DNA from: Pelosinus sp. UFO1
Lineage (GTDB): Bacteria; Bacillota; Negativicutes; DSM-13327
Direction of reading: 5' to 3'
Length of the DNA stretch: 64,000 bases
NCBI RefSeq assembly: GCF_000725345.1
Contig: NZ_CP008852.1
Coordinates: forward strand, 1,393,693-1,457,692
Shown: piece after piece, positions 5,710 through 30,792 of the stretch
How positions within the stretch are numbered: position 1 is the first letter of the stretch
Layout: each line of letters begins with the position of its first letter
Program-made: the position numbers and the translations under genes
Notes under the pieces: model-generated
Told to the model about the DNA's origin: nothing
Database searches by the model: none
The model's input: only the letters and a program-made list of their open reading frames with translations

Positions 5710-7080
5710 ATGTTAAGAGATTGGTATAAGGCAAAAAAATCACGTGAAATCGGCGCGCAAGGCGATCTGCATAATGAGAGCAGTAACGTGAAAAACTATG
5801 ACGTTATTGTGGTTGGAGCGGGTCCCGCAGGAGCTAGTGCTGCTTATTTTATGGCAAAAGAAGGACTGGATGTTTTGCTTTTGGAGCGAGGGCCTTTTCC
5901 AGGGGCTAAGAGCTGTGGTGGTACTTCACTGATTGCCGAACATACTCACAAATTATTCCCTAACTTCTGGGAAGAATGTCACTGCGAACGTATTGTAATC
6001 CAGCAAGCTTATTGGTTTATGACAGAGGATTCGTTACTGTCATCCTCTTTTCAAAGCATGAAACTGGCTGCTGCCCCTTATAATCATTTTACAGTAAAAC
6101 GTAGAAGTCTTTATCAATGGCTTGTTGATAAGGCTAATGCTGTAGGAGTCTCTGTACATCTTAATCATCATGTTACAGAAGTAATATTTGAAGGTACTCA
6201 GGCGATTGGCGTTGAAGTATCATTACCACAAAAATCTAGATTCTTTGCAAATGTTATTATTTTAGCTGACGGGGCCAACTCCTTGGTTGGTGAACGTTCT
6301 GGACTTATACCGAGAGTATCATCCCAAAACTTAGCCCTTTATGTAAAAGAAACCATTGCTCTGTCAGCTCGGGTGATTGAAGAGCGGTTTAATTTGTCTC
6401 CTGGGTATGGTAGTTTAATTGGGTTGATCGGTTATCCTACGGCTGGTTTTAATGGCACTGGCTCGATACATACATTTAAAGACAGTCTCAATATTAATGT
6501 AGGTATGGCAATTTCTGATTTTGCCATATCAGGTATTCGCCCTTATGAGCTGTTGGATCGGATAAAGAACCACCCTTTTATTAAGACCCTATTGATTGGT
6601 GGTAAGACAATCGAATATGGAGGATCGGTAATTCCAGAAGGTGGGTATCATGCCATCCCGAAACTAGTTCATCCGGGATTAATCATCATTGGTGATGCCG
6701 CATCCCTAGTTAATGGTACCCATGGCATAAATTTGGCAATGTGGTCGGGCTTTTTCGCTTCTCAAGCAGTTTATGAGAGTAAAAAAAGTAGGGATTTTTC
6801 AGTAAAAAAGTTATCGTTATATAGTACCTTGTTAGATGAAAGTTTCGTTATGCAGGATCTAAAAGCGAATGCCAAAATTGCCAGCCTACAACGTGACCTT
6901 CCTTATTTATTCGATTTATATACCAAGATAGCGAACGACACAGCCTATCATGTGGCAAAAGTATATTCGATGCCAAAAAAAGCGAAACGTAAATTTATCT
7001 TTAAGAAAATAACCAGTATCCAGCCAATTTTTAAAATGGCTAGTGATATATGGAAAATACTGAAGGTAGTAAAAGGATGA
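5710..7080 (+). CDS. fixC: FixC-like FAD-dependent quinone oxidoreductase
   Basis: A 456-residue flavoprotein of the FixC/geranylgeranyl reductase family. The N-terminal dinucleotide motif VVGAGPAGASAAYF is near residue 31, and a second FAD motif GDAASLVNG lies near residue 330. FixC proteins work with FixX as electron-transfer-flavoprotein:quinone oxidoreductases. An N-terminal extension of about 25 residues precedes the FAD motif. ATG 5710 was preferred to GTG 5701 because the GTG is part of the AAGGGTGA ribosome site. The last four bases overlap fixX. No fixA/fixB (ETF) genes are next to it. Divergent orientation from the hydrogenase may mean shared control, but no operator was recognised. 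Confidence 0.85.
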   Translation: MLRDWYKAKKSREIGAQGDLHNESSNVKNYDVIVVGAGPAGASAAYFMAKEGLDVLLLERGPFPGAKSCGGTSLIAEHTHKLFPNFWEECHCERIVIQQAYWFMTEDSLLSSSFQSMKLAAAPYNHFTVKRRSLYQWLVDKANAVGVSVHLNHHVTEVIFEGTQAIGVEVSLPQKSRFFANVIILADGANSLVGERSGLIPRVSSQNLALYVKETIALSARVIEERFNLSPGYGSLIGLIGYPTAGFNGTGSIHTFKDSLNINVGMAISDFAISGIRPYELLDRIKNHPFIKTLLIGGKTIEYGGSVIPEGGYHAIPKLVHPGLIIIGDAASLVNGTHGINLAMWSGFFASQAVYESKKSRDFSVKKLSLYSTLLDESFVMQDLKANAKIASLQRDLPYLFDLYTKIANDTAYHVAKVYSMPKKAKRKFIFKKITSIQPIFKMASDIWKILKVVKG

Positions 7081-14188: not shown

Positions 14189-14231
14189 TTTGTGATCTAA
14201 AGTGAACTGTTTTATTTTAACAAACAACTAG

Positions 14232-14257
14232 GACTTGGTGAAAACCAAGTCTTTTTA
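14232..14257 (+). terminator. Terminator after mazF
   Basis: An eight-base perfect stem with a GAAA tetraloop (14232-14251) and a run of five T. Confidence 0.9.
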
Positions 14258-14290
14258 GTTAGAAAATGATATGTTGTGAGGAGTTTTATT

Positions 14291-15184
14291 ATGATACGTA
14301 GATGGTTAGCAGTATTCATGTTGCTAATGTTTGTTATTATGGTTGTAGCAGGTTGTAGTAAACAAAGTGTAAAACCAGCAGGGCAAGGGGGGCAAAAGCA
14401 AACCAGTTCAGCAAGTTCACCTCTTACTGTGAAGGTACTAGATATTGGACAAGGTGATGCTATTTTAATCCGCGTAGCTGGGCAAACTGTATTGGTTGAT
14501 TCAGGAGATATTAGTACTAGAGAAAAATTAGTACAATACATAAAAAAAGAGGGCATTACCACAATTGATAAGGTAATCATTACTCACCCACATGCCGATC
14601 ATTTAGGCGGAATGCCAGGGGTGCTGGATAATTTCAAAGTTAATCAGATTTACGATAGTGGACAAACTACGACCACTGCCCTGTATCGTCAGTATTTAAC
14701 TCTAGTAAAAAAGAAAGAGATACCTTTTACAGTGCTTACTGCCGGTACTGAGATTGTTATTTCTGATGATATTAAACTTAAAATTCTTGCGCCAGAAAAG
14801 CCATTTATAACGGAATCTGAGTTGAATAATAATTCTATAGTTACTAAACTGGTTTATAATAACTTTTCCATGTTATTAACTGGGGATGCAGAAAAGGAAT
14901 CTGAAAACCGTATGGTGAAAACCTATGGAAATGAGCTTAAAAGTACTATATTGAAAGTTGGACATCATGGTAGCAACACCTCTTCGTCAATTGAGTTTTT
15001 AAAAATCGTAGCTCCGGAGGCTGCTATTATCTCACTAGGCGCTAACAACGATTATCACCATCCTCATCCCTCTACAATGAAAAAATTAAATGAGGCCAAG
15101 GTGAAAGTATATCGCACAGATACAGATGGGACGGTAACAGTAAATAGCGACGGAAAAACTTATACAATAACAAAGGAGCAGTAA
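14291..15184 (+). CDS. ComEC-like metallo-beta-lactamase-fold lipoprotein
   Basis: A 297-residue lipoprotein: signal peptide ending VVAGC (lipidated cysteine near residue 18), a short Gln/Ser-rich linker, then a metallo-hydrolase domain. The zinc motif is THPHADHLGG; later ligands appear in LLTGDAE and VGHHGS, and HHPHP near the end. The domain resembles the C-terminal hydrolase domain of ComEC, which degrades the non-transported DNA strand, but the membrane channel is absent. It may be an exported nuclease or phosphodiesterase; the substrate is unknown. GAGGAG lies seven bases before ATG 14291. It is followed after one base by a DUF3006 gene, a frequent pairing. Confidence 0.85.
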   Translation: MIRRWLAVFMLLMFVIMVVAGCSKQSVKPAGQGGQKQTSSASSPLTVKVLDIGQGDAILIRVAGQTVLVDSGDISTREKLVQYIKKEGITTIDKVIITHPHADHLGGMPGVLDNFKVNQIYDSGQTTTTALYRQYLTLVKKKEIPFTVLTAGTEIVISDDIKLKILAPEKPFITESELNNNSIVTKLVYNNFSMLLTGDAEKESENRMVKTYGNELKSTILKVGHHGSNTSSSIEFLKIVAPEAAIISLGANNDYHHPHPSTMKKLNEAKVKVYRTDTDGTVTVNSDGKTYTITKEQ

Positions 15185-21686: not shown

Positions 21687-22137
21687 ACCTAGGTATCTAA
21701 TGTTACTCACCTATCTTGTAATGTTTGTAAAGGACTCTATAAATGGCCTATAACAATTATAAGAAGACTTTATCAAGTGAAACATATATTTCAATCCTAG
21801 TTACATTACCTAGGAAGATAGTCCAACAATAAAGGTTTACACTTATAAAAAAGATCAATCTTAGACTAGATCATCGTAAAAAAGGGCCACGGCAGTCTGA
21901 CTGCTGTGGCCTTTTGGTATGTCCAGCATAGGCGTTTATTAGTCGGGTAAATAAGGCATCTACAGGAACTAAATTAAATAATTACATAGCTCCTACTCGA
22001 CTCATTATAAGTAACAAGTATTTTGCAGGAGTTTTATATTTTAAGGTAAATAAGGTGTAAATATAGCTTAAAGTTGAAAAATGAACCAAATGCGGAACAA
22101 ATTCGTATATATAATAAGGATTAGGGGTGGTGGTTTA
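21687..22137. other. Intergenic region between rbsB and the ECF sigma gene
   Basis: No gene is seen. It contains a long-range inverted repeat of CCTAGGTA near 21689 and TACCTAGG near 21808, the rbs terminator at 21881-21915, and an 11-base direct repeat GGTAAATAAGG at 21946-21956 and 22045-22055. The second copy lies about 80 bases before the sigma gene start and may belong to its promoter. Confidence 0.5.
21881..21918 (+). terminator. Terminator of the ribose operon
   Basis: A 16-base stem (21881-21896 with 21900-21915; one G-U and one mismatched-type pair) with loop CTG; the GC-rich core GGCCAC pairs with GTGGCC and a TTTT follows. Confidence 0.9.
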
Positions 22138-22683
22138 TTGGTCTCTGATGAGGAATTAGCATTGCAAATGCAAATGGGTAGTGAAGAAGCTTTTGAGGAA
22201 ATTATTAAGCGCTATCATGGACCAATACATGTCTATATATTAAGGATGTGCGAGGATTATCACGCTACCCATGATATTACTCAAGAAAGTTTTATTAAAG
22301 TGTGTAGAGGAATACAGTATTATAGACCAGGACTTCCTTTTAAGGCATGGTTGTATAGTATTGCTATTAATACATATAAAGATTATCGAAAAAAAGCTTA
22401 CATAAGGAAAGTAATCCCTGGACTGGAGAAAACAAAGAGTTGCTCCACTAACACTGCAACACCAGAAGAATCCCTAGTAAAAGATTATGAAAGAGCTAGG
22501 CTGATCCAAGAGATTAATAGCCTTGGCGATATTTACCGTGAAACGTTAATCTTGCGCTATTATGATGAGTTAAAATTAGACGAAATAGCCAGTGTACTTA
22601 ATATTCCAACAGGTACAGTAAAATCTAGGTTATCGAAAGGCTTGTCACAGTTAAAAAAGATTTTCTCCACAAAGGAGCTTTAA
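22138..22683 (+). CDS. ECF-type RNA polymerase sigma factor
   Basis: A 181-residue sigma-70-family factor with only regions 2 and 4. Region 2 (about 10-85) includes EEAFEEIIKRYHG, DITQESFIKVCRG and FKAWLYSIAINTYKDYRKK; region 4 (about 120-175) has LRYYDELKLDEIASVLNIPTGTVKSRLSKGLSQLK, the helix-turn-helix that reads the -35. It should direct a small regulon, probably including its own operon. The TTG at 22138 lies seven bases after AGGGGTGGT and gives the usual ECF N-terminus. The next gene overlaps its stop codon, which suggests that the membrane protein controls it. No classical anti-sigma is seen. Confidence 0.9.
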   Translation: MVSDEELALQMQMGSEEAFEEIIKRYHGPIHVYILRMCEDYHATHDITQESFIKVCRGIQYYRPGLPFKAWLYSIAINTYKDYRKKAYIRKVIPGLEKTKSCSTNTATPEESLVKDYERARLIQEINSLGDIYRETLILRYYDELKLDEIASVLNIPTGTVKSRLSKGLSQLKKIFSTKEL

Positions 22684-23522
22684 TGATGAAGAAAAGACAG
22701 GAAATAGTGCGCGATATCGGTGAGGATTTGGTAAACATTGATATGAACGATGTTTTTGATCAATTAGACAAATATCATATGGATTCGCCGTCAATGGAAG
22801 CTACGAACCAGCTTATACAAAGTATTAAACCCGTATTTATCCAGGAGAGAGCAAGGATAAATCAAGGACAACGTTTTAGAGACGTAATTGTGAATACGCG
22901 CCAAGATAATGGTATCCCTGTAATATTACAGTTAATCGTATCTCAGATGACTCTAATGAGCAGAGGGTTCGTAACTTTAACTATTACATTTTTTATTGTT
23001 AGTTTACTGTTAGCTAGCATTTTCGAGAGAAATTTACCAAGAGTTTTGGTTATCGCGTCACCTTTGTTGGGTTTGTTAACCCTTTTCTATGAGTATCGTG
23101 CTCAAATATACAAGGTAGAAGAAATGGAAGCGACTTGTCGCTATTCACCTGTTCAGGTAGCTACGGCACGAATGTTGATAGTTCTGAGTTATAATGTGAT
23201 GCTTTGCACTGCAGCTACAGTAATAATTCAATCTTCCTATAACGTTGTTATTTGGAATTTGATGTTGAATTGGTTATCGCCCCTATTGTTGATGTTAGGA
23301 GTCGCGTTGTTTACGTCCTTAAAGCTCGGGATAACAAGTGGTTGTACAATGGCAGGTGCATTGTGGATTTGCCAGGTAACCCTTATAGACGGAGACTCTT
23401 TTCTACACCTATTATTACCTAACCTGACGAGTGTTGTTATTAATCTTATCAGTATGTTGCTTGGGATTGGACTACTAATTTTTTCTTTACGTATTTGGAA
23501 ACCTGAAGAGCGGTTAGTTTAG
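22683..23522 (+). CDS. Membrane protein of the sigma/ABC operon, possible anti-sigma
   Basis: Not a family I recognise. It has 279 residues: a hydrophilic N-terminal part of about 90 residues with no zinc-finger anti-sigma motif (no HxxxCxxC), then about six hydrophobic segments (around 93-113, 118-135, 165-185, 192-212, 220-235 and 250-270), and a short charged end. The cytoplasmic N-terminus followed by membrane helices, overlapping the end of an ECF sigma gene, is the layout of many anti-sigma factors. It could instead be a permease-like half. ATG 22683 or ATG 22686 could serve; AAGGAG is at 22672-22677. Confidence 0.7.
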   Translation: MMKKRQEIVRDIGEDLVNIDMNDVFDQLDKYHMDSPSMEATNQLIQSIKPVFIQERARINQGQRFRDVIVNTRQDNGIPVILQLIVSQMTLMSRGFVTLTITFFIVSLLLASIFERNLPRVLVIASPLLGLLTLFYEYRAQIYKVEEMEATCRYSPVQVATARMLIVLSYNVMLCTAATVIIQSSYNVVIWNLMLNWLSPLLLMLGVALFTSLKLGITSGCTMAGALWICQVTLIDGDSFLHLLLPNLTSVVINLISMLLGIGLLIFSLRIWKPEERLV

Positions 23523-23548
23523 GAGTAGTAAAGAGGGGGGGAGGCAAG

Positions 23549-24421
23549 ATGTTAACTCTGGAGCTCGCAGATATATCAAAAAAATATAAAATGGATTCAT
23601 GGGTGTTACATAATGTTTCGACCACTATTACGTCGGGGATTTACTCGTTGATTGGTCCTAATGGAGCGGGAAAAACCACGTTATTGCGCCTAATGGTAGG
23701 TATGCTGCGACCTAGTTCAGGAAGGATATTGTTTAAAGGGCAAGATATTAACCAAGATTATAGGCAATATAAACAAAACATAGGGTACTTGCCCCAAGAG
23801 TTCGGTTTTTATCCTGATATGACTGGTAGGGATTTTTTGCATTACATGGCAAGGCTAAAAGGTATCCCATCCAGTTTATACCCAGGCAGGGTGGAAGAAG
23901 TTTCCCAATTTATAGGGGTGACCTCTTTTTTAGATAGGAAGATTGGCAGTTGGTCTTTTGGGATGAGACGGCGCCTCGGAATAGTCCAGGCATTACTTGC
24001 TGATCCCGATGTTTTAATTCTTGATGAACCGATGATTGGGCTTGATCTAGAAGAAAAACTTTTTATTTGGAATTATTTCTCTCATCTATCAAAAGACCGT
24101 ATCATCATATTTAGCAGTAACATCTTGACGGATTTCACTACGTTTACTGATGGAATGTTATTAGTAAACGGAAAAGTACGTTTTAATGGACGTATTCAAG
24201 AGTTAATTGATCTTATGAATGGGAAAGTCTGGGTCGTAGATGTACCAGTAGAATCAGGGCAGCAAATAGCAAATATATGGGCTGTAAGCGAATTACATGC
24301 TGATGAGGAAACTTGTCAAGTAAGAATCGTAAGCGATGTTATGCCAGGCATTCTGGGAGTGCGGTCGGCTCAGCCTAGAGTCAAAGATGCTTATATCTAC
24401 ATAGTCAGGCAAAAGGAGTAA
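23549..24421 (+). CDS. ABC transporter ATPase 1 of the sigma operon, switch His missing
   Basis: A 290-residue ABC-2-type ATPase. Walker A GPNGAGKTT near residue 38, Q-loop GYLPQEFGFYPDMTGRDFL near 82, signature region WSFGMRRRLGIVQALL (SFGMR instead of LSGGQ), Walker B VLILDEPMIGLD. The switch region reads IFSSNIL where most ABC ATPases have STH, so the hydrolysis histidine is Asn here. This suggests that one of the two sites in a heterodimer with the next ATPase is weak or regulatory. A GGGGGGAGG ribosome site precedes the start. The C-terminal about 70 residues are an extra domain common in ABC-2 exporters. Confidence 0.85.
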   Translation: MLTLELADISKKYKMDSWVLHNVSTTITSGIYSLIGPNGAGKTTLLRLMVGMLRPSSGRILFKGQDINQDYRQYKQNIGYLPQEFGFYPDMTGRDFLHYMARLKGIPSSLYPGRVEEVSQFIGVTSFLDRKIGSWSFGMRRRLGIVQALLADPDVLILDEPMIGLDLEEKLFIWNYFSHLSKDRIIIFSSNILTDFTTFTDGMLLVNGKVRFNGRIQELIDLMNGKVWVVDVPVESGQQIANIWAVSELHADEETCQVRIVSDVMPGILGVRSAQPRVKDAYIYIVRQKE

Positions 24422-24427
24422 AAGAAA

Positions 24428-25303
24428 TTGCGATTGCAGGTAACGAATCTTATGAAAATTTATAAGGGAAGCATAACCGCTTTGCATGATGTTAGCTGTA
24501 GCGTGGGAACGGGGATCGTTGGTCTGATTGGTCCTAACGCCTCTGGGAAAACGACTTTTTTAAAGATCGTAGCAGGCTTGGAAGAACCGACTGCAGGGGA
24601 AGTGTATTTTGATGGATTAGAGTTAATGCAAAACAAACAGTTATTTCGCTCGATGATAGGGTATCTTCCCCAGGAATTTGGTTTTCATAAAGCAATTACT
24701 GGGGAAGTGATGCTAGATTATATTGCTGTCCTTAAAGGCATCTATGATAAGAAAATACGGCGACATATGGTGGATGAAGCAATTGATGGGGTAAATCTTA
24801 ATGAAGCTCGTAAGTTAATTATAGGGGAATATTCCTTCGGAATGAAACGTAGGCTGGGTATAGCTCAAGCACTGCTTGGGAGGCCTCGTATATTAATCCT
24901 AGATGAAGCGATGGAAGGGCTTGATCCAGAAGAAAGTAGGAGGTTAGAGGGACTAATTGCCGAGGTGGCTGGCCGGAGCTTAGTCGTAATTTCAACACAT
25001 TCCTTAAGCAATGTGTTCGGTTGTAGTACTCTATTGGTTTTACGTGAGGGTTACATGCTGTATAAGGGAACCCCAGTAGAATTAATCGGTCTGGCAGATG
25101 GATTAGTATGGCAGGTGGAAACGGATTATCAGCAAATGGAAAAGCTTAAGATGAGCTGTAAAATACTCGGCGTACAAGAAGCGGATAGACATGTGGTAGT
25201 AAGGGTATTGTCTGCCCAAAAACCTCACGGAAAAGCAATGCCAGCAAAAGCCCGTATAGAAGAAGGATATTTGGCATTGATGAATGCCGGAGTGCAGCCA
25301 TGA
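24428..25303 (+). CDS. ABC transporter ATPase 2 of the sigma operon
   Basis: A 291-residue ATPase paralogous to the gene before it. Walker A is GPNASGKTT (Ala-Ser for Gly-Ala), Q-loop GYLPQEFGFHKAITGEVML, signature YSFGMKRRLGIAQALLG, Walker B ILILDEAMEGLD (Ala for the usual Pro; the catalytic Glu is kept), and a normal switch STHS. It therefore looks catalytically more complete than its partner. The TTG start has AAGGAG nine bases upstream. It overlaps the permease gene by four bases. The two ATPases probably pair on the permease that follows. Confidence 0.85.
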   Translation: MRLQVTNLMKIYKGSITALHDVSCSVGTGIVGLIGPNASGKTTFLKIVAGLEEPTAGEVYFDGLELMQNKQLFRSMIGYLPQEFGFHKAITGEVMLDYIAVLKGIYDKKIRRHMVDEAIDGVNLNEARKLIIGEYSFGMKRRLGIAQALLGRPRILILDEAMEGLDPEESRRLEGLIAEVAGRSLVVISTHSLSNVFGCSTLLVLREGYMLYKGTPVELIGLADGLVWQVETDYQQMEKLKMSCKILGVQEADRHVVVRVLSAQKPHGKAMPAKARIEEGYLALMNAGVQP

Positions 25304-27693
25304 TTACTGTAATTACGCATACAGTTATATTTGAATGTAAGATATATTTTAAAAATAAAAAATTTTGGCTTATTGCTCTCTTGATTAACGCGTACGCTTG
25401 GGCAGCATTTCTTTTAGCAGGGCAGGTGATCTCAGGTGTTGCTCAAATGTTTATACCTGCGTTACTTTTTTTGTCTGCAGAAGTTGTAACGAAAGATCAA
25501 CGGGACGATTTTACGGAGATTATATATACCCTTCCCTATAAGAATCTGTTCCTGTTAGGCGGGCGGGCACTTGCTGTATTGTTGTTGTTCCTGTTTTTAG
25601 GAATAGAACTATTACTAACCATGCTACTAGTTGCAAATACGTCATTGCCTGTCTATATTAGTTGGTCGGCTTGCTGGGCTTTTATGGTGAAGTATCTTGT
25701 TGCCTGTATCAATGTAATTGGCATAACATTTATGGTGTTCAGTCTAACGAAGAATGCGGTTCGCCTTTATTTTTTATTATTGTTTTGGTGGCTGCTAGGA
25801 GTATTCCTGACGGGTAATGCAGGCGTTTTATTTCCCCAATGGGTTGCAATTGTTAATTTTACTTTTATTCATGGTTTTGGAGGGAACCCTTCGGAAGTTA
25901 CTGGGGTATATCCCTATGATGGAGTAATAGAGGCAATTATTTTTTTTCAAATTACTTGGTCTGTCATATTATTTACTATTGCGGTTATCATTGAAAACGT
26001 AAGGCGGGAACAGAGAAAAAATATAATAAGAACTTGTCTTCCCTTATTTTTGACCTGCAGTGCTATAGTAGTATTGACTTTTTATACTACATGGCAGTAT
26101 TTGGAGATTGAAAGTTCGAATGATAAAAATGATAGTACTATTTCCAGGGGTGTATTACTTCCAAGAGCAAACAGTGATGTACAAAGCATATTTCCTGCTG
26201 CTTATGACCTATATATCACATTGGATTCTAATACGCATAATATGGTAGTAAAGGCGCAGATAACCTTGAAAAACCTTGGAAAAACTTCACCACCTACTAT
26301 TGAATTTACGCTTCGTGACTACCTTTGTGTACAACGAGTGGTCAACAGAGCTACTGGTGAGGCACTAGTATGGCAGCAGCAAGGACCAACTGTAACCGTA
26401 AACCTTCCCCACGGAAGTTTCGCAGCTACAGAGTTATTGACGGTGGAGATAAGCTACTCAGGTAAAGTGTGGGAGTGGGCGGAGGATATTTATGGACAGT
26501 CAACAGGACTTGTTAATTTTGTAGCTTCTCCATTTACCTTTTTACGTGGAGGGTATGCCTGGTATCCTGTTTTAGGCAGGCAGCCTCTACACTCCACGTT
26601 CAGTTATTTCTCACCTTGGACGAATCAGCCAAAACAGTTAAAACAGAGTGTGCTCGTTACCCATATCCCAGTGCCCTTCAAGATGACAGTAGAGAGTGAT
26701 CAAGATGTAATGTTTATTTCAAATATAGAATTTAAAAAAAAGGTTAGAGATGGTACTATACAACGGAATGAATTCACTTCCGAAGCAGGTAGGGATGTGT
26801 TTTTACTTGCCGGACCTTATGAACATACAAAAATAGTGGTTGCTGGGACCGACAAATTGGTTGATTTTTATCATTTTTCTAACCATGATTATAATTTGAA
26901 TAACATGGCATATAAGGTCAGTCAGATTGATTATTATGGTAGCTTGGTTCCTCGAGGTGGCGATGCTGCCAGGAGTGATGTGAAAAACGGTTATGTAATA
27001 TTTGAAGCTCCACGCTTTCTTACGTATGATAGTTTAATGAATACGAGTAACTTAGGTGTTATTGATGCAATATCCATGCCGGAAGCCATATTTTTAACGA
27101 AAGCATTGTATTCTCCTTGGTGGTCGCAGTCAGCAGGACGTATTCTGAGCGAAGCACGTAGTTTAAACCTTTGGTGGCCAAATTGTTTTAGTAAACCAAA
27201 GGGTGATATAGCTGACGGTTTGGCACTTTATATGTATATCCTATATACTGAAAATAAGCAGGGAAAGAAGTTTTATGACCATGCTAGGGAATACTGGCTA
27301 TTTTACAATGAAAAATCTCCTGACAACGAAGAGATGCTGGGTCAGCGAGGGCGAATCGTACAGGAAATATTTCTATTGCTAGACAGTATTCGGCAGTCAA
27401 ACTTGGGAGACGATGGGGTCAGGCAATTTTTGCGTTTTGTTAACAGGAGATATCAAGATAAACGTGTGATTGAAATAGCTGACATGGTTGATGCCCTGGA
27501 GTTAATCGGTGCGTTGAAGCAACATGATGACGTAAGAAAAGATGCGGGATCTAGGGATGACAAATATCGTAACAGTATAAACACGTTAAGCCATCATTTG
27601 AAGAATCCGCCAGAGAACAGAATACGTAGCACTTTGACGTTCAAATTAAACTGGGATTTCGGTGCTCAAATTACAAATAAAGAAGCGCAGTGA
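25300..27693 (+). CDS. ABC-2 permease fused to an M1-aminopeptidase-like domain without zinc site
   Basis: A 797-residue protein. The first 265 residues are a membrane domain with about seven helices and the ABC-2-type feature of a long cytoplasmic start. The remaining about 530 residues lie outside the membrane. They resemble the beta-sandwich and catalytic regions of M1 aminopeptidases (YDLYITLDSNTHNMVVKAQI, TVEISYSGKVWEW, LGQRGRIVQEIF). No HExxH is present anywhere; the corresponding region appears to be AIFLTKALYSPWWSQ and the later Glu region GDIADGLALYMY. The domain is therefore probably a binding, not a cutting, module. Permease/M1 fusions with active sites are known in other bacteria; this inactive form with an ECF sigma factor I do not recognise. 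Confidence 0.75.
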   Translation: MITVITHTVIFECKIYFKNKKFWLIALLINAYAWAAFLLAGQVISGVAQMFIPALLFLSAEVVTKDQRDDFTEIIYTLPYKNLFLLGGRALAVLLLFLFLGIELLLTMLLVANTSLPVYISWSACWAFMVKYLVACINVIGITFMVFSLTKNAVRLYFLLLFWWLLGVFLTGNAGVLFPQWVAIVNFTFIHGFGGNPSEVTGVYPYDGVIEAIIFFQITWSVILFTIAVIIENVRREQRKNIIRTCLPLFLTCSAIVVLTFYTTWQYLEIESSNDKNDSTISRGVLLPRANSDVQSIFPAAYDLYITLDSNTHNMVVKAQITLKNLGKTSPPTIEFTLRDYLCVQRVVNRATGEALVWQQQGPTVTVNLPHGSFAATELLTVEISYSGKVWEWAEDIYGQSTGLVNFVASPFTFLRGGYAWYPVLGRQPLHSTFSYFSPWTNQPKQLKQSVLVTHIPVPFKMTVESDQDVMFISNIEFKKKVRDGTIQRNEFTSEAGRDVFLLAGPYEHTKIVVAGTDKLVDFYHFSNHDYNLNNMAYKVSQIDYYGSLVPRGGDAARSDVKNGYVIFEAPRFLTYDSLMNTSNLGVIDAISMPEAIFLTKALYSPWWSQSAGRILSEARSLNLWWPNCFSKPKGDIADGLALYMYILYTENKQGKKFYDHAREYWLFYNEKSPDNEEMLGQRGRIVQEIFLLLDSIRQSNLGDDGVRQFLRFVNRRYQDKRVIEIADMVDALELIGALKQHDDVRKDAGSRDDKYRNSINTLSHHLKNPPENRIRSTLTFKLNWDFGAQITNKEAQ

Positions 27694-27716
27694 TGATTGC
27701 GCTTCTTTTTTTTTTA
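27680..27716 (+). terminator. Terminator of the sigma/ABC operon
   Basis: A ten-base perfect stem (27680-27689 with 27698-27707) and a run of nine T. The stop codon lies in the loop, so the hairpin starts inside the gene. Confidence 0.92.
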
Positions 27717-27820
27717 TTTTTTTGAGATTATTCCAGGAAATGGTGAACCTAATGATAAGTATAATCGTATTACTTTATGAACATCTGGTTTGCAAAAATA
27801 TGGGGAAGGAGCTATGAAAT

Positions 27821-28804
27821 GTGAAACAATTTTTTTCTAAAACTTGTCTAATGGGTTTATTGGTATTGATTCTGGTAGGTTCATTTCAATCTGTGGTGTG
27901 GTGTGCTGATTTTGAGCGGCGTGATGTTACATTCAAGAGCCAAGGTTTGGTGTGCGCAGGTTGGTACTATATACCTAAAGATGTAAATCCTGAAACAAAG
28001 CATCCCGCAATTGTCATGGCACATGGTTTTACTGGGGTAAAGGAGATGAGTCTTAACAAGTTTGCTGAAAAGTTCGCGGAAGCCGGATTTGCTGTTCTAG
28101 TATTCGATTATCGGTATCTTGGTGCTAGTGAGGGGGAACCAAGGGGGCAAATCTTCTATTTTGACCAACAACAGGATTACCGAAACGCTATTACTTGGAT
28201 ATCCCTACAGAAGGAGGTAGACCTTGAGCGTATTGGTATTTGGGGGACCTCGGATAGTGGGGGGCACGTTCTGCATTTAGGAGCCTTTGATAGACGTGTG
28301 AAAGCGGTGGTTGCCCAAATGCCAACAATTAACGCCCGTTATCAAAATATGGGTGAGGAAGCTCGAGAACGGAGGGCGGCATTTTATGCTCGCAATCGAG
28401 TGGAAGAGTATGCAAAGGGAATCGTGAACTACTATCCTGTAGTCGCGCCTACGGGGCAGCCCGCCTGTCTTCCTCAAAAGGAAGCCTACAATTATTTTAT
28501 AGAAGCAGCAAAGGAAGCTCCAAATTGGAAAAATCAAGTTACGATAGAGTCACTTGATATTTATAAGGAATTCAATCCGGCAGCGTTTATTCATCTAATT
28601 TCGCCAACTCCCTTGTTGATGATTGTTGCCAGTGAAGATATTGTGACGTCGGCTGACGGTGAAATAAAGGCGTTTGAGCGTGCTGGAGAACCCAAAAAGA
28701 TGGTTGTTATAAAAGGTGATCATTTTTCTTCCTATGAAGGTTCAAGTTTTTCTGAGGCCTCTACAACAGCTGTTGAGTGGTTCGGACACTACCTTAAGCC
28801 GTAG
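27821..28804 (+). CDS. Exported alpha/beta hydrolase
   Basis: A 327-residue hydrolase with a signal peptide (hydrophobic 10-24, cut near VVWCA; a cysteine just before the mature part might instead be lipidated, but the lipobox is poor). The fold markers are VMAHGFTGVKEMS, the nucleophile elbow GTSDSGG, an acid region VASEDIVT and the final histidine in KGDHFSSYEG. It resembles the dienelactone-hydrolase/X-Pro dipeptidyl-peptidase-like group of esterases and peptidases. Substrate unknown. GTG 27821 lies nine bases after AAGGAG. It follows the terminator of the ABC operon, so it has its own transcript. Confidence 0.8.
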   Translation: MKQFFSKTCLMGLLVLILVGSFQSVVWCADFERRDVTFKSQGLVCAGWYYIPKDVNPETKHPAIVMAHGFTGVKEMSLNKFAEKFAEAGFAVLVFDYRYLGASEGEPRGQIFYFDQQQDYRNAITWISLQKEVDLERIGIWGTSDSGGHVLHLGAFDRRVKAVVAQMPTINARYQNMGEEARERRAAFYARNRVEEYAKGIVNYYPVVAPTGQPACLPQKEAYNYFIEAAKEAPNWKNQVTIESLDIYKEFNPAAFIHLISPTPLLMIVASEDIVTSADGEIKAFERAGEPKKMVVIKGDHFSSYEGSSFSEASTTAVEWFGHYLKP

Positions 28805-29028: not shown

Positions 29029-29553
29029 ATGAAGAAAAATAGGTTCGTTGCATTAATGACCATTCTGATTGGAATCATATGGATTTGCGCCCCAGTTGTT
29101 ACGGTATCAGCAGAAACAGAACATTCTCTGCAGGTGGAGGCTACAAGTTATATTGTTTCTTCGCAGTGGCTTCCTGCGGGGGACGAGGCAGGACACGTAA
29201 TTGGTATGACACAACGAGAGGGAGAGGCTATATTCAGTAATGGAGAAACAGCTAAGTACTCAACGGTTTCCACTTTTGATTCCCGCCGTAGTAAGGGTGG
29301 AACGGCTCAAGGTTATTCTAAATTTGCTTTTGATGATGGATCTTTGATCGTATTTTCTTGGATCTCAGAAATAATCAGGACCCAAGATGGACTTCCTTTG
29401 AATCAGGGACAGGGAACCATTATAAAAGGAACCGGACGTTTCGAAGGTATAAAAGGTGTATCAGCTTTTAGTGGTAAGCAGTTAAAATCTGTAGAGGATG
29501 ACACAAAGCTCACTTCATTCCAGAATGCGACTATTACATATACTCTTCCATGA
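29029..29553 (+). CDS. Secreted beta-rich protein of unknown function
   Basis: A 174-residue protein with a clear Sec signal peptide (MKKNRF, hydrophobic core, cut near VSAET). The mature part of about 145 residues is rich in beta-strand patterns. It contains GTIIKGTGRFEGIKGVSAF, reminiscent of the small beta-barrel of allene-oxide-cyclase-like or DUF3224-type proteins, where a G-x-G-x-F-x-G-I-x-G turn is common. No catalytic motif or cysteine pair is visible. Strong ribosome site CGGAGG. I do not recognise a function. Confidence 0.75.
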   Translation: MKKNRFVALMTILIGIIWICAPVVTVSAETEHSLQVEATSYIVSSQWLPAGDEAGHVIGMTQREGEAIFSNGETAKYSTVSTFDSRRSKGGTAQGYSKFAFDDGSLIVFSWISEIIRTQDGLPLNQGQGTIIKGTGRFEGIKGVSAFSGKQLKSVEDDTKLTSFQNATITYTLP

Positions 29554-29616
29554 CAAGTATGATGTGTATTAGTTATAAAAAATGTAGAATAGTTTGCTAG
29601 AAGGAGAGTGAGTAGG

Positions 29617-30792
29617 TTGGTAACTATGGCAAAACAAAGCTCTACCGGACAAGAAAATCTTATCAACAGAATGTATTTTTTAGATAATTTACGGTCGCTT
29701 ATCATTTTATTGGTAGTGGCTTATCATGCTGCTTTAGCGTATATGGTTCGCGGCCCACAGTGGTATTATGTGATTGACCCCCAAAATGATTTCTTTTTCA
29801 ATTTATTTGTTATATTCAACGATGTATTTGTAATGCCGGTTATGTTTTTACTTGCTGGATTCTTTGCTATCCGTTCTTTAACACGAAAGGGACAATTGGT
29901 ATTTTGGCAAGGCAAAATACTGAGGATTGTCATTCCATATTTTGCGGGGATCATATTTCTGGCGCCAGCTATTAACTATATTTATTTTTTAAGTCGATTC
30001 GATACACCTCCAGCTTATTTAGATTACTGGGTTAACATTTTTTTCGACTTAGCACGTCAACATGCTCATCTTTGGTTCTTAGGTGTGTTGATCTTGTTTT
30101 ATCTAGTGTTGTCTCTTGTCTATTATTTTTATAAGCCGTTGGTAAGTGGTGAAGTTAAAACGAGTTTACCGTCAATTAAATTTATTATTGGATTTGGTCT
30201 GGTTACAAGTATTGCTTTCTTTGGTGTAAAACAGTTTTTTGATGATTATACATGGATAATGGTAAAACATGTACTCATGTTTCAACCTACGCGATGTATC
30301 TTGTATAGTTTTTATTTTGCTTTAGGTATTTACGCCTACCATCAGCAGTGGTTTACTGCTTGTGGATATATGCCTGGAATAAAAATTTGGGGACCAATTG
30401 CTATCGTGTTAGGTAGCATCTATACTCAATTTAGAATTATGTTTTGGGCAAAACGGGAGCTTCTAATAGTAATGATTGCTAACGATTTATTGTATTCCTT
30501 TTTTTGTCTTTCGGCAGTATTCGCCTTGGTGGCCTTATTTTATCGTTGGATGAATTACACATCCAACATGTTGAACAAGCTGGCGACCAATTCCTACGGT
30601 ATTTATTTTGTCCACCAGCCGATTCTAATGCTGTTAATCTTAGCTATCCGTGGTTATCAAATAAACGTATTCGTTAAGTTTCTAGTTGTCTCAGTGTTAA
30701 CGATAGCATTGTGTATTTTCGTATGTGAATTTATTTTATCGAAAATACCATCACTTATTTATCGGGCAAGACCGCACATACTAAGTAAATAG
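29617..30792 (+). CDS. Membrane acyltransferase (acyltransferase 3 family)
   Basis: A 391-residue protein with about ten hydrophobic helices. It opens with RMYFLDNLRSLIILLVVAYHAALAY, where the Arg and His match the conserved pattern of acyltransferase-3 proteins (DxLRxxxxxxVVxxH). Such enzymes move acyl groups onto sugars or glycans in the envelope; the variant resembles the OpgC/glucan-modifying subgroup. The start is uncertain: TTG 29617 lies nine bases after AAGGAG and is preferred over GTG 29608 (inside that site) and ATG 29626 (far). Substrate unknown. Confidence 0.75.
   Translation: MVTMAKQSSTGQENLINRMYFLDNLRSLIILLVVAYHAALAYMVRGPQWYYVIDPQNDFFFNLFVIFNDVFVMPVMFLLAGFFAIRSLTRKGQLVFWQGKILRIVIPYFAGIIFLAPAINYIYFLSRFDTPPAYLDYWVNIFFDLARQHAHLWFLGVLILFYLVLSLVYYFYKPLVSGEVKTSLPSIKFIIGFGLVTSIAFFGVKQFFDDYTWIMVKHVLMFQPTRCILYSFYFALGIYAYHQQWFTACGYMPGIKIWGPIAIVLGSIYTQFRIMFWAKRELLIVMIANDLLYSFFCLSAVFALVALFYRWMNYTSNMLNKLATNSYGIYFVHQPILMLLILAIRGYQINVFVKFLVVSVLTIALCIFVCEFILSKIPSLIYRARPHILSK

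Follow-up and report, generated by a model that had tools for sequence, protein, structure and literature searches.

An ECF sigma factor cassette with ABC-2-type transporter genes and an M1-peptidase-like domain lacking zinc ligands, conserved in Pelosinus and related genomes

At positions 22138-27693 of the window, the 64,000-nucleotide stretch of the Pelosinus sp. UFO1 genome analysed here, five genes lie on one strand and mostly overlap in the list of open reading frames. The TAA stop codon of the sigma factor gene SIG and the ATG of the following gene P2 overlap by one base, and the ABC2 and M1P genes by four bases. An earlier note on this DNA had described the arrangement as one tight operon; all five open reading frames are present at the coordinates given below, and its observations as a whole were confirmed. 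The genes and features of the locus are as follows.

22082-22107, + strand: predicted ECF-type promoter of the cassette, TGAAC-N16-TCGTA (conserved motif upstream of SIG)
22138-22683, + strand: SIG, ECF sigma factor with a TTG start (Pfam Sigma70_r2 and Sigma70_r4_2)
22683-23522, + strand: P2, a cytoplasmic N-terminus of about 75 residues and six helices, ABC-2-permease-like, candidate anti-sigma factor (adjacency to SIG and profile matches)
23549-24421, + strand: ABC1 ATPase, with Asn (24119-24121) in the switch His position (Pfam ABC_tran and motif table)
24428-25303, + strand: ABC2 ATPase, switch His kept, DEA in place of DEP (Pfam ABC_tran and motif table)
25300-26160, + strand: M1P residues 1-287, ABC-2 permease domain (Pfam matches of homologues; helical in the model)
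26161-27693, + strand: M1P residues 288-797, predicted extracytoplasmic, catalytically dead M1-peptidase-like domain (Foldseek, profile-profile match, Peptidase_M1_N in homologues)
27154-27168, + strand: HExxH position in M1P, reading ARSLN and followed by LWW (alignment to active M1 enzymes and 20 homologues)
27205-27219, + strand: M1P site matching the third zinc ligand (WLxEG), reading DIADG (same alignment)
27679-27708, + strand: intrinsic terminator closing the operon (13-pair stem, then a T run)
27744-27769, + strand: second predicted sigma promoter copy, TGAAC-N16-TCGTA, in front of the transcription unit that follows (downstream copies in other cassettes)
27821-28804, + strand: secreted alpha/beta-hydrolase, probable sigma target (Pfam Peptidase_S15/Abhydrolase/AXE1; orthologue in G003, locus L013, with the same promoter)

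The whole M1P gene (25300-27693) encodes 797 amino acids and P2 encodes 279. For SIG, the TTG start at 22138 was preferred over a longer open reading frame opening with ATG at 22081 because the conserved promoter lies inside that extension. SIG and both ATPases were recognized by Pfam and NCBIfam as an ECF sigma factor and ABC ATPases, and the same two libraries gave no direct family match for the P2 and M1P proteins of the window.

A genome-neighborhood survey, which the earlier note had proposed as a check, found the same five-gene order, SIG-P2-ABC1-ABC2-M1P, in 14 cassettes of the same class and in one further full cassette from another class (G724). Homologues of M1P occurred in 13 of 381 same-class genomes, among them records named Pelosinus, Sporomusa malonica and Anaerospora, and all of them lay within such cassettes, two of which are incomplete (one broken by a frameshift in G336, the other ended by a contig edge); the homologues were retrieved from the genome collection with an alignment as query, a single-protein query giving no match. 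The genes flanking the cassettes mostly differ between genomes, the pattern expected if the cassette is kept as a unit for its own sake. Searches for plasmid relatives and for sequence relatives among solved structures found none, and diverged forms of the cassette are present in other Bacillota, four of which (L061, L062, L063 and L155) carry an extra small ABC-2-like permease directly after M1P. The broken cassette (L049, G336:C2:85000-95864) appears to be decaying: a stop or frameshift interrupts its homologue of the 797-residue M1P, its P2 lacks the N-terminus and both of its ATPases, alone among the cassettes, have Gln at the switch position. In G107, a second M1P homologue fragment with an internal stop (C62:4675-4839) sits near the intact cassette on the opposite strand.

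The fold of the M1P ectodomain was supported by both structure and sequence profiles. The AlphaFold model of M1P has a mean pLDDT of 61, better in the ectodomain, and residues 1-287 are helical; searched with Foldseek, it returned M1 peptidases as all of its top 50 solved structures, among them IRAP (E=1.8e-14) and the two-domain M1 enzyme of D. radiodurans (target TM-score about 0.6). Profile-profile comparison with hhalign against active Bacillota M1 proteins gave a probability of 99% (E=6.2e-19 over 381 columns), and Pfam matched Peptidase_M1_N in 3 of 10 M1P homologues, bearing out the M1-aminopeptidase look that had been attributed to the protein; PF01433 had no match across the genome. 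The membrane part is related to ABC-2 permeases, with ABC2_membrane_5 matched in 6 of 10 homologues (best 3e-6) and ABC2_membrane_3 matched as well. The overall fold is thus common to M1P and the M1 zinc aminopeptidases compared (IRAP, ERAP1, LTA4H and D. radiodurans M1), whereas in M1P the two zinc-binding His residues are missing, as are the catalytic Glu and the Glu of the third ligand, and M1P, unlike these enzymes, is fused to an ABC-2 permease. According to the earlier note, ABC-2 permeases with active M1 domains exist elsewhere; of the M1-bearing loci with a clear zinc signature among 30 fetched from 200 Bacillota genomes, none was a multi-helix fusion.

In the profile-profile alignment, HEIAHQWW of the active enzymes falls on ARSLNLWW of M1P and WLDEG on DIADG. 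HExxH and the third zinc ligand are absent from the window protein and from all 20 aligned homologues, so that the missing HExxH reported from the single sequence holds for every homologue, and the two alignments together rule out an intact motif hidden by an alignment artefact. That the domain might retain an unusual activity, without zinc or with different ligands, would fit its strong conservation, including invariant WW, LRxGxAWYP and DxFLxAxPY blocks. We consider this very improbable, since both His and both Glu of HExxH and WLxEG are replaced differently by lineage and no substitute set is conserved. Judged from these alignments, the ectodomain is a pseudoenzyme.

Both ATPases possess Walker A, Q loop, signature and Walker B motifs, the signature being noncanonical (WTKG or YSFG types). 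Two substitutions had been singled out earlier as features of the system, Asn for the switch His in ABC1 and Ala after the Walker B Glu in ABC2; both are real and neither is defining, since only G003, in its sister cassette, shares the Asn and no cassette other than that of the window has the Ala. The switch His of ABC2 is replaced by Ser in the Sporomusa-type group, the main Pelosinus group keeps His in both ATPases, and the very diverged ABC1 of L062 also lacks it. Because both changes vary by lineage, we rejected them as signs of a defective system. Instead, loss of the switch His in alternate partners by lineage suggests that ABC1 and ABC2 form an asymmetric heterodimer, and that only the frameshifted cassette has lost it from both fits a pair acting as a single unit.

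The second gene, previously described as a six-helix protein overlapping the sigma gene, does overlap it, and its description can be extended to that of an ABC-2-permease relative. In profile-profile comparisons, read as single-comparison E-values, the transmembrane region of P2 matched the permease region of M1P at E=4.8e-7 with a wide sequence set and independent ABC-2 permeases at E=2.4e-6, and seven unrelated membrane proteins or families used as controls stayed above 0.1. With only a few sequences, an initial comparison of P2 with M1P had not been significant (E=0.08), P2 did not match the two larger permeases of the L158 and L159 variants (E=0.42), and its AlphaFold model was of low confidence with insignificant Foldseek matches. 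The N-terminal segment of about 75 residues is conserved in P2 and missing from the ordinary ABC-2 permeases examined. Within a 399-genome sample of the phylum, P2 stood directly behind a related ECF sigma factor in all 10 readable genomes, making the suspected partnership of this protein with the sigma factor an invariant neighbor pair across Bacillota. The pair is kept at loci without ABC2 and M1P (L158, L159) and at loci with no ATPase behind P2 (L157, L160), from which we take SIG-P2 to be the core of the system and the transporter genes a variable addition. As P2 lies directly behind SIG wherever this could be tested, even where an ATPase or M1 gene is lacking, it is likely the anti-sigma factor of SIG; no Pfam anti-sigma family was found in P2 among nine homologues.

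The same genes could instead encode a conventional export or detoxification pump under sigma control, with P2 and M1P as the two ABC-2 permease halves, the M1 domain aiding cargo capture or release, and SIG controlled by other means than P2. The ABC-2 likeness of both proteins, the presence of two ATPases and the additional permease after M1P in some distant cassettes all agree with a pump, as does an ABC2-M1P-permease module with no sigma gene nearby in G538 (L068, contig C19), where a transporter with a dead M1 domain can apparently stand alone and M1P can function with no sigma module around it. Yet P2 accompanies SIG at L157 with no ATPase or permease following, its conserved N-terminal segment has no equivalent in the ordinary permeases examined, and the cassette contains no further conserved regulator; we therefore regard a simple exporter as unlikely.

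A promoter motif probably connects SIG to its own operon and to neighboring genes. Its consensus, [T/C]GAAC-N16-TCGTA, is present ahead of SIG in the window's lineage and most others; seven of the 13 intact cassettes have it within 150 nt upstream, where dinucleotide shuffles predict none, and it also precedes the sigma gene in the distant loci L155 and L160. SIG therefore probably transcribes its own operon, a computational result in line with the self-control proposed for the cluster, and autoregulation is not universal, as the main Pelosinus clade has the motif downstream of M1P and none upstream of SIG. Ten of the 13 cassettes carry the motif within 600 bases past M1P, compared with a mean of 0.005 in shuffled sequence, several of these cassettes being close relatives rather than independent cases; it is absent downstream in L018, L020 and L048. 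The exact TGAAC form has 14 sites in the 5.1-Mb genome, no more than a reversed control, of which 12 fall within genes and the only two noncoding ones flank the cassette, at the SIG promoter and at 27744. A site at pyrF (L078), considered as a third regulon member, was rejected because it is coding.

The site at 27744 lies past the terminator and 77 bases ahead of the secreted alpha/beta-hydrolase gene, and SIG appears from this placement to drive that next transcription unit as well. In G003, the gene behind the downstream motif is an orthologue of the same hydrolase; in G006, and at a greater distance downstream in G724, there are secreted PAF-AH-like hydrolases, and the main Pelosinus clade has a GT2 glycosyltransferase together with a PMT/ArnT-like enzyme. 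The predicted targets are thus envelope-acting: secreted hydrolases of abhydrolase and PAF-AH types and glycosyltransferases of GT2 and PMT/ArnT-like types. Such targets would also suit a machine for envelope assembly or modification, in which the M1-like domain would serve as a docking scaffold for lipoproteins or envelope polymers, with the role of the sigma factor limited to coordinating expression with the hydrolases and glycosyltransferases. However, the targets vary by lineage while the five-gene core is constant, which suits a switch better and makes an assembly machine improbable.

Drawing on the conserved gene set, the M1 fold devoid of zinc ligands, the ABC-2 kinship of P2 and M1P, the linkage of SIG to P2 and the shared promoter motif, all read from sequence, we propose, with evenly balanced confidence, that the cassette is a self-contained, autoregulated ECF sigma module that senses the envelope. 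P2, a descendant of an ABC-2 permease, would hold SIG at the membrane through its cytoplasmic N-terminus, and P2 and M1P, as the membrane part, would join the asymmetric ABC1/ABC2 pair in one transporter-like complex. The outward-facing dead M1 domain may bind a peptide-like or envelope ligand, and this binding, read through the ATPase cycle, would lead to release of SIG, which would then transcribe its own operon and an adjacent envelope-acting gene, here the secreted hydrolase. Counting against this proposal are the sigma-free locus of G538, the lack of a known anti-sigma family in P2, and the cassettes without the upstream motif (main Pelosinus clade) or the downstream one (L018, L020, L048). 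The interpretation offered in the earlier note was borne out in part: the M1 fold without a zinc site, the gene order, sigma self-control and P2 as sigma partner stood, and the ATPase anomalies did not stand as defining features. Of the three results that the note had named as ones that would refute it, not one was seen.

The B. subtilis sigY operon brings together genes for an ECF sigma factor, negative regulators, an ABC ATPase and a permease, and the combination found here, which the earlier note did not recognize as described, is therefore not without precedent in kind. A literature search, made without the main ECF classification paper, found no paper on an ECF sigma factor combined with ABC-2 and aminopeptidase components. 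Both systems join an ECF sigma factor to ABC ATPase and permease genes, and SigY is among the NCBIfam models closest to SIG (116 bits against a cut-off of 194), SIG falling below each curated subfamily cut-off among the close models. The sigY operon, however, has one ATPase, small separate anti-sigma proteins and no M1-like domain, whereas the cassette has two ATPases and one ABC-2-like candidate anti-sigma factor, and no small genes of YxlC, YxlD or YxlE type lie between SIG and the ATPases of the cassettes. The operon runs sigY-yxlC-yxlD-yxlE-yxlF-yxlG; PMC4326333 gives annotations for its genes, and PMC3498285 places sigY in its own regulon and cites a study of the sigY operon. The counterpart of this autoregulated promoter in the cassette is, computationally, the conserved upstream motif of several lineages outside the main Pelosinus clade. 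ECF257, a group with ABC transporters nearby and no identified anti-sigma factor (PMC8999054), likewise links an ECF sigma gene to ABC transporter genes, as compared by description only, and that description names no M1-like domain, unlike the cassette.

In Bce-type antimicrobial peptide sensing and resistance modules, an ABC transporter detects an external ligand and passes the signal to a regulator (PMC10314905), and the likeness to the cassette is one of functional analogy. Bce modules use a two-component histidine kinase and a different type of permease, whereas the cassette has an ECF sigma factor and ABC-2 permeases, and no histidine kinase or response regulator is among its conserved genes. 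On the features tested, the cassette belongs to neither system, and the sigY operon and Bce modules are best read as functional analogues. More tentatively, we suggest that the anti-sigma factor may itself be an ABC-2 permease derivative and that an ATP-driven transporter with a pseudopeptidase receptor directly gates the sigma factor, making the cassette a possible sigma-factor counterpart of a Bce module. If so, the presence of an external ligand would be signaled to an ECF sigma factor by an ABC transporter and not by a histidine kinase or regulated protease, and a dead peptidase would have been reused as a receptor. The P2-like six-helix proteins beside ECF sigma factors across Bacillota, which had no Pfam match here, may represent an unrecognized anti-sigma family, and the predicted promoters, partners and target genes make the system testable.

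Secreted proteins recur around several cassettes. Three similar copies of a PAF-AH-like secreted hydrolase follow the cassette of G006 (L019, 12574-16002), the first two each with their own sigma promoter copy and one apparently truncated (98 aa). At L020 in G107, a divergent sigma promoter copy (about 6549-6623, minus strand) precedes the gene for a small secreted protein (about 125 aa); a similar secreted protein is encoded past the L019 cassette (14218-14586). In the window, the hydrolase gene and an acyltransferase-3 gene (29608-30792) are separated by the gene of a secreted 174-aa protein (29029-29553) that has no sigma motif upstream and whose homologue lies downstream of the hydrolase in G003.
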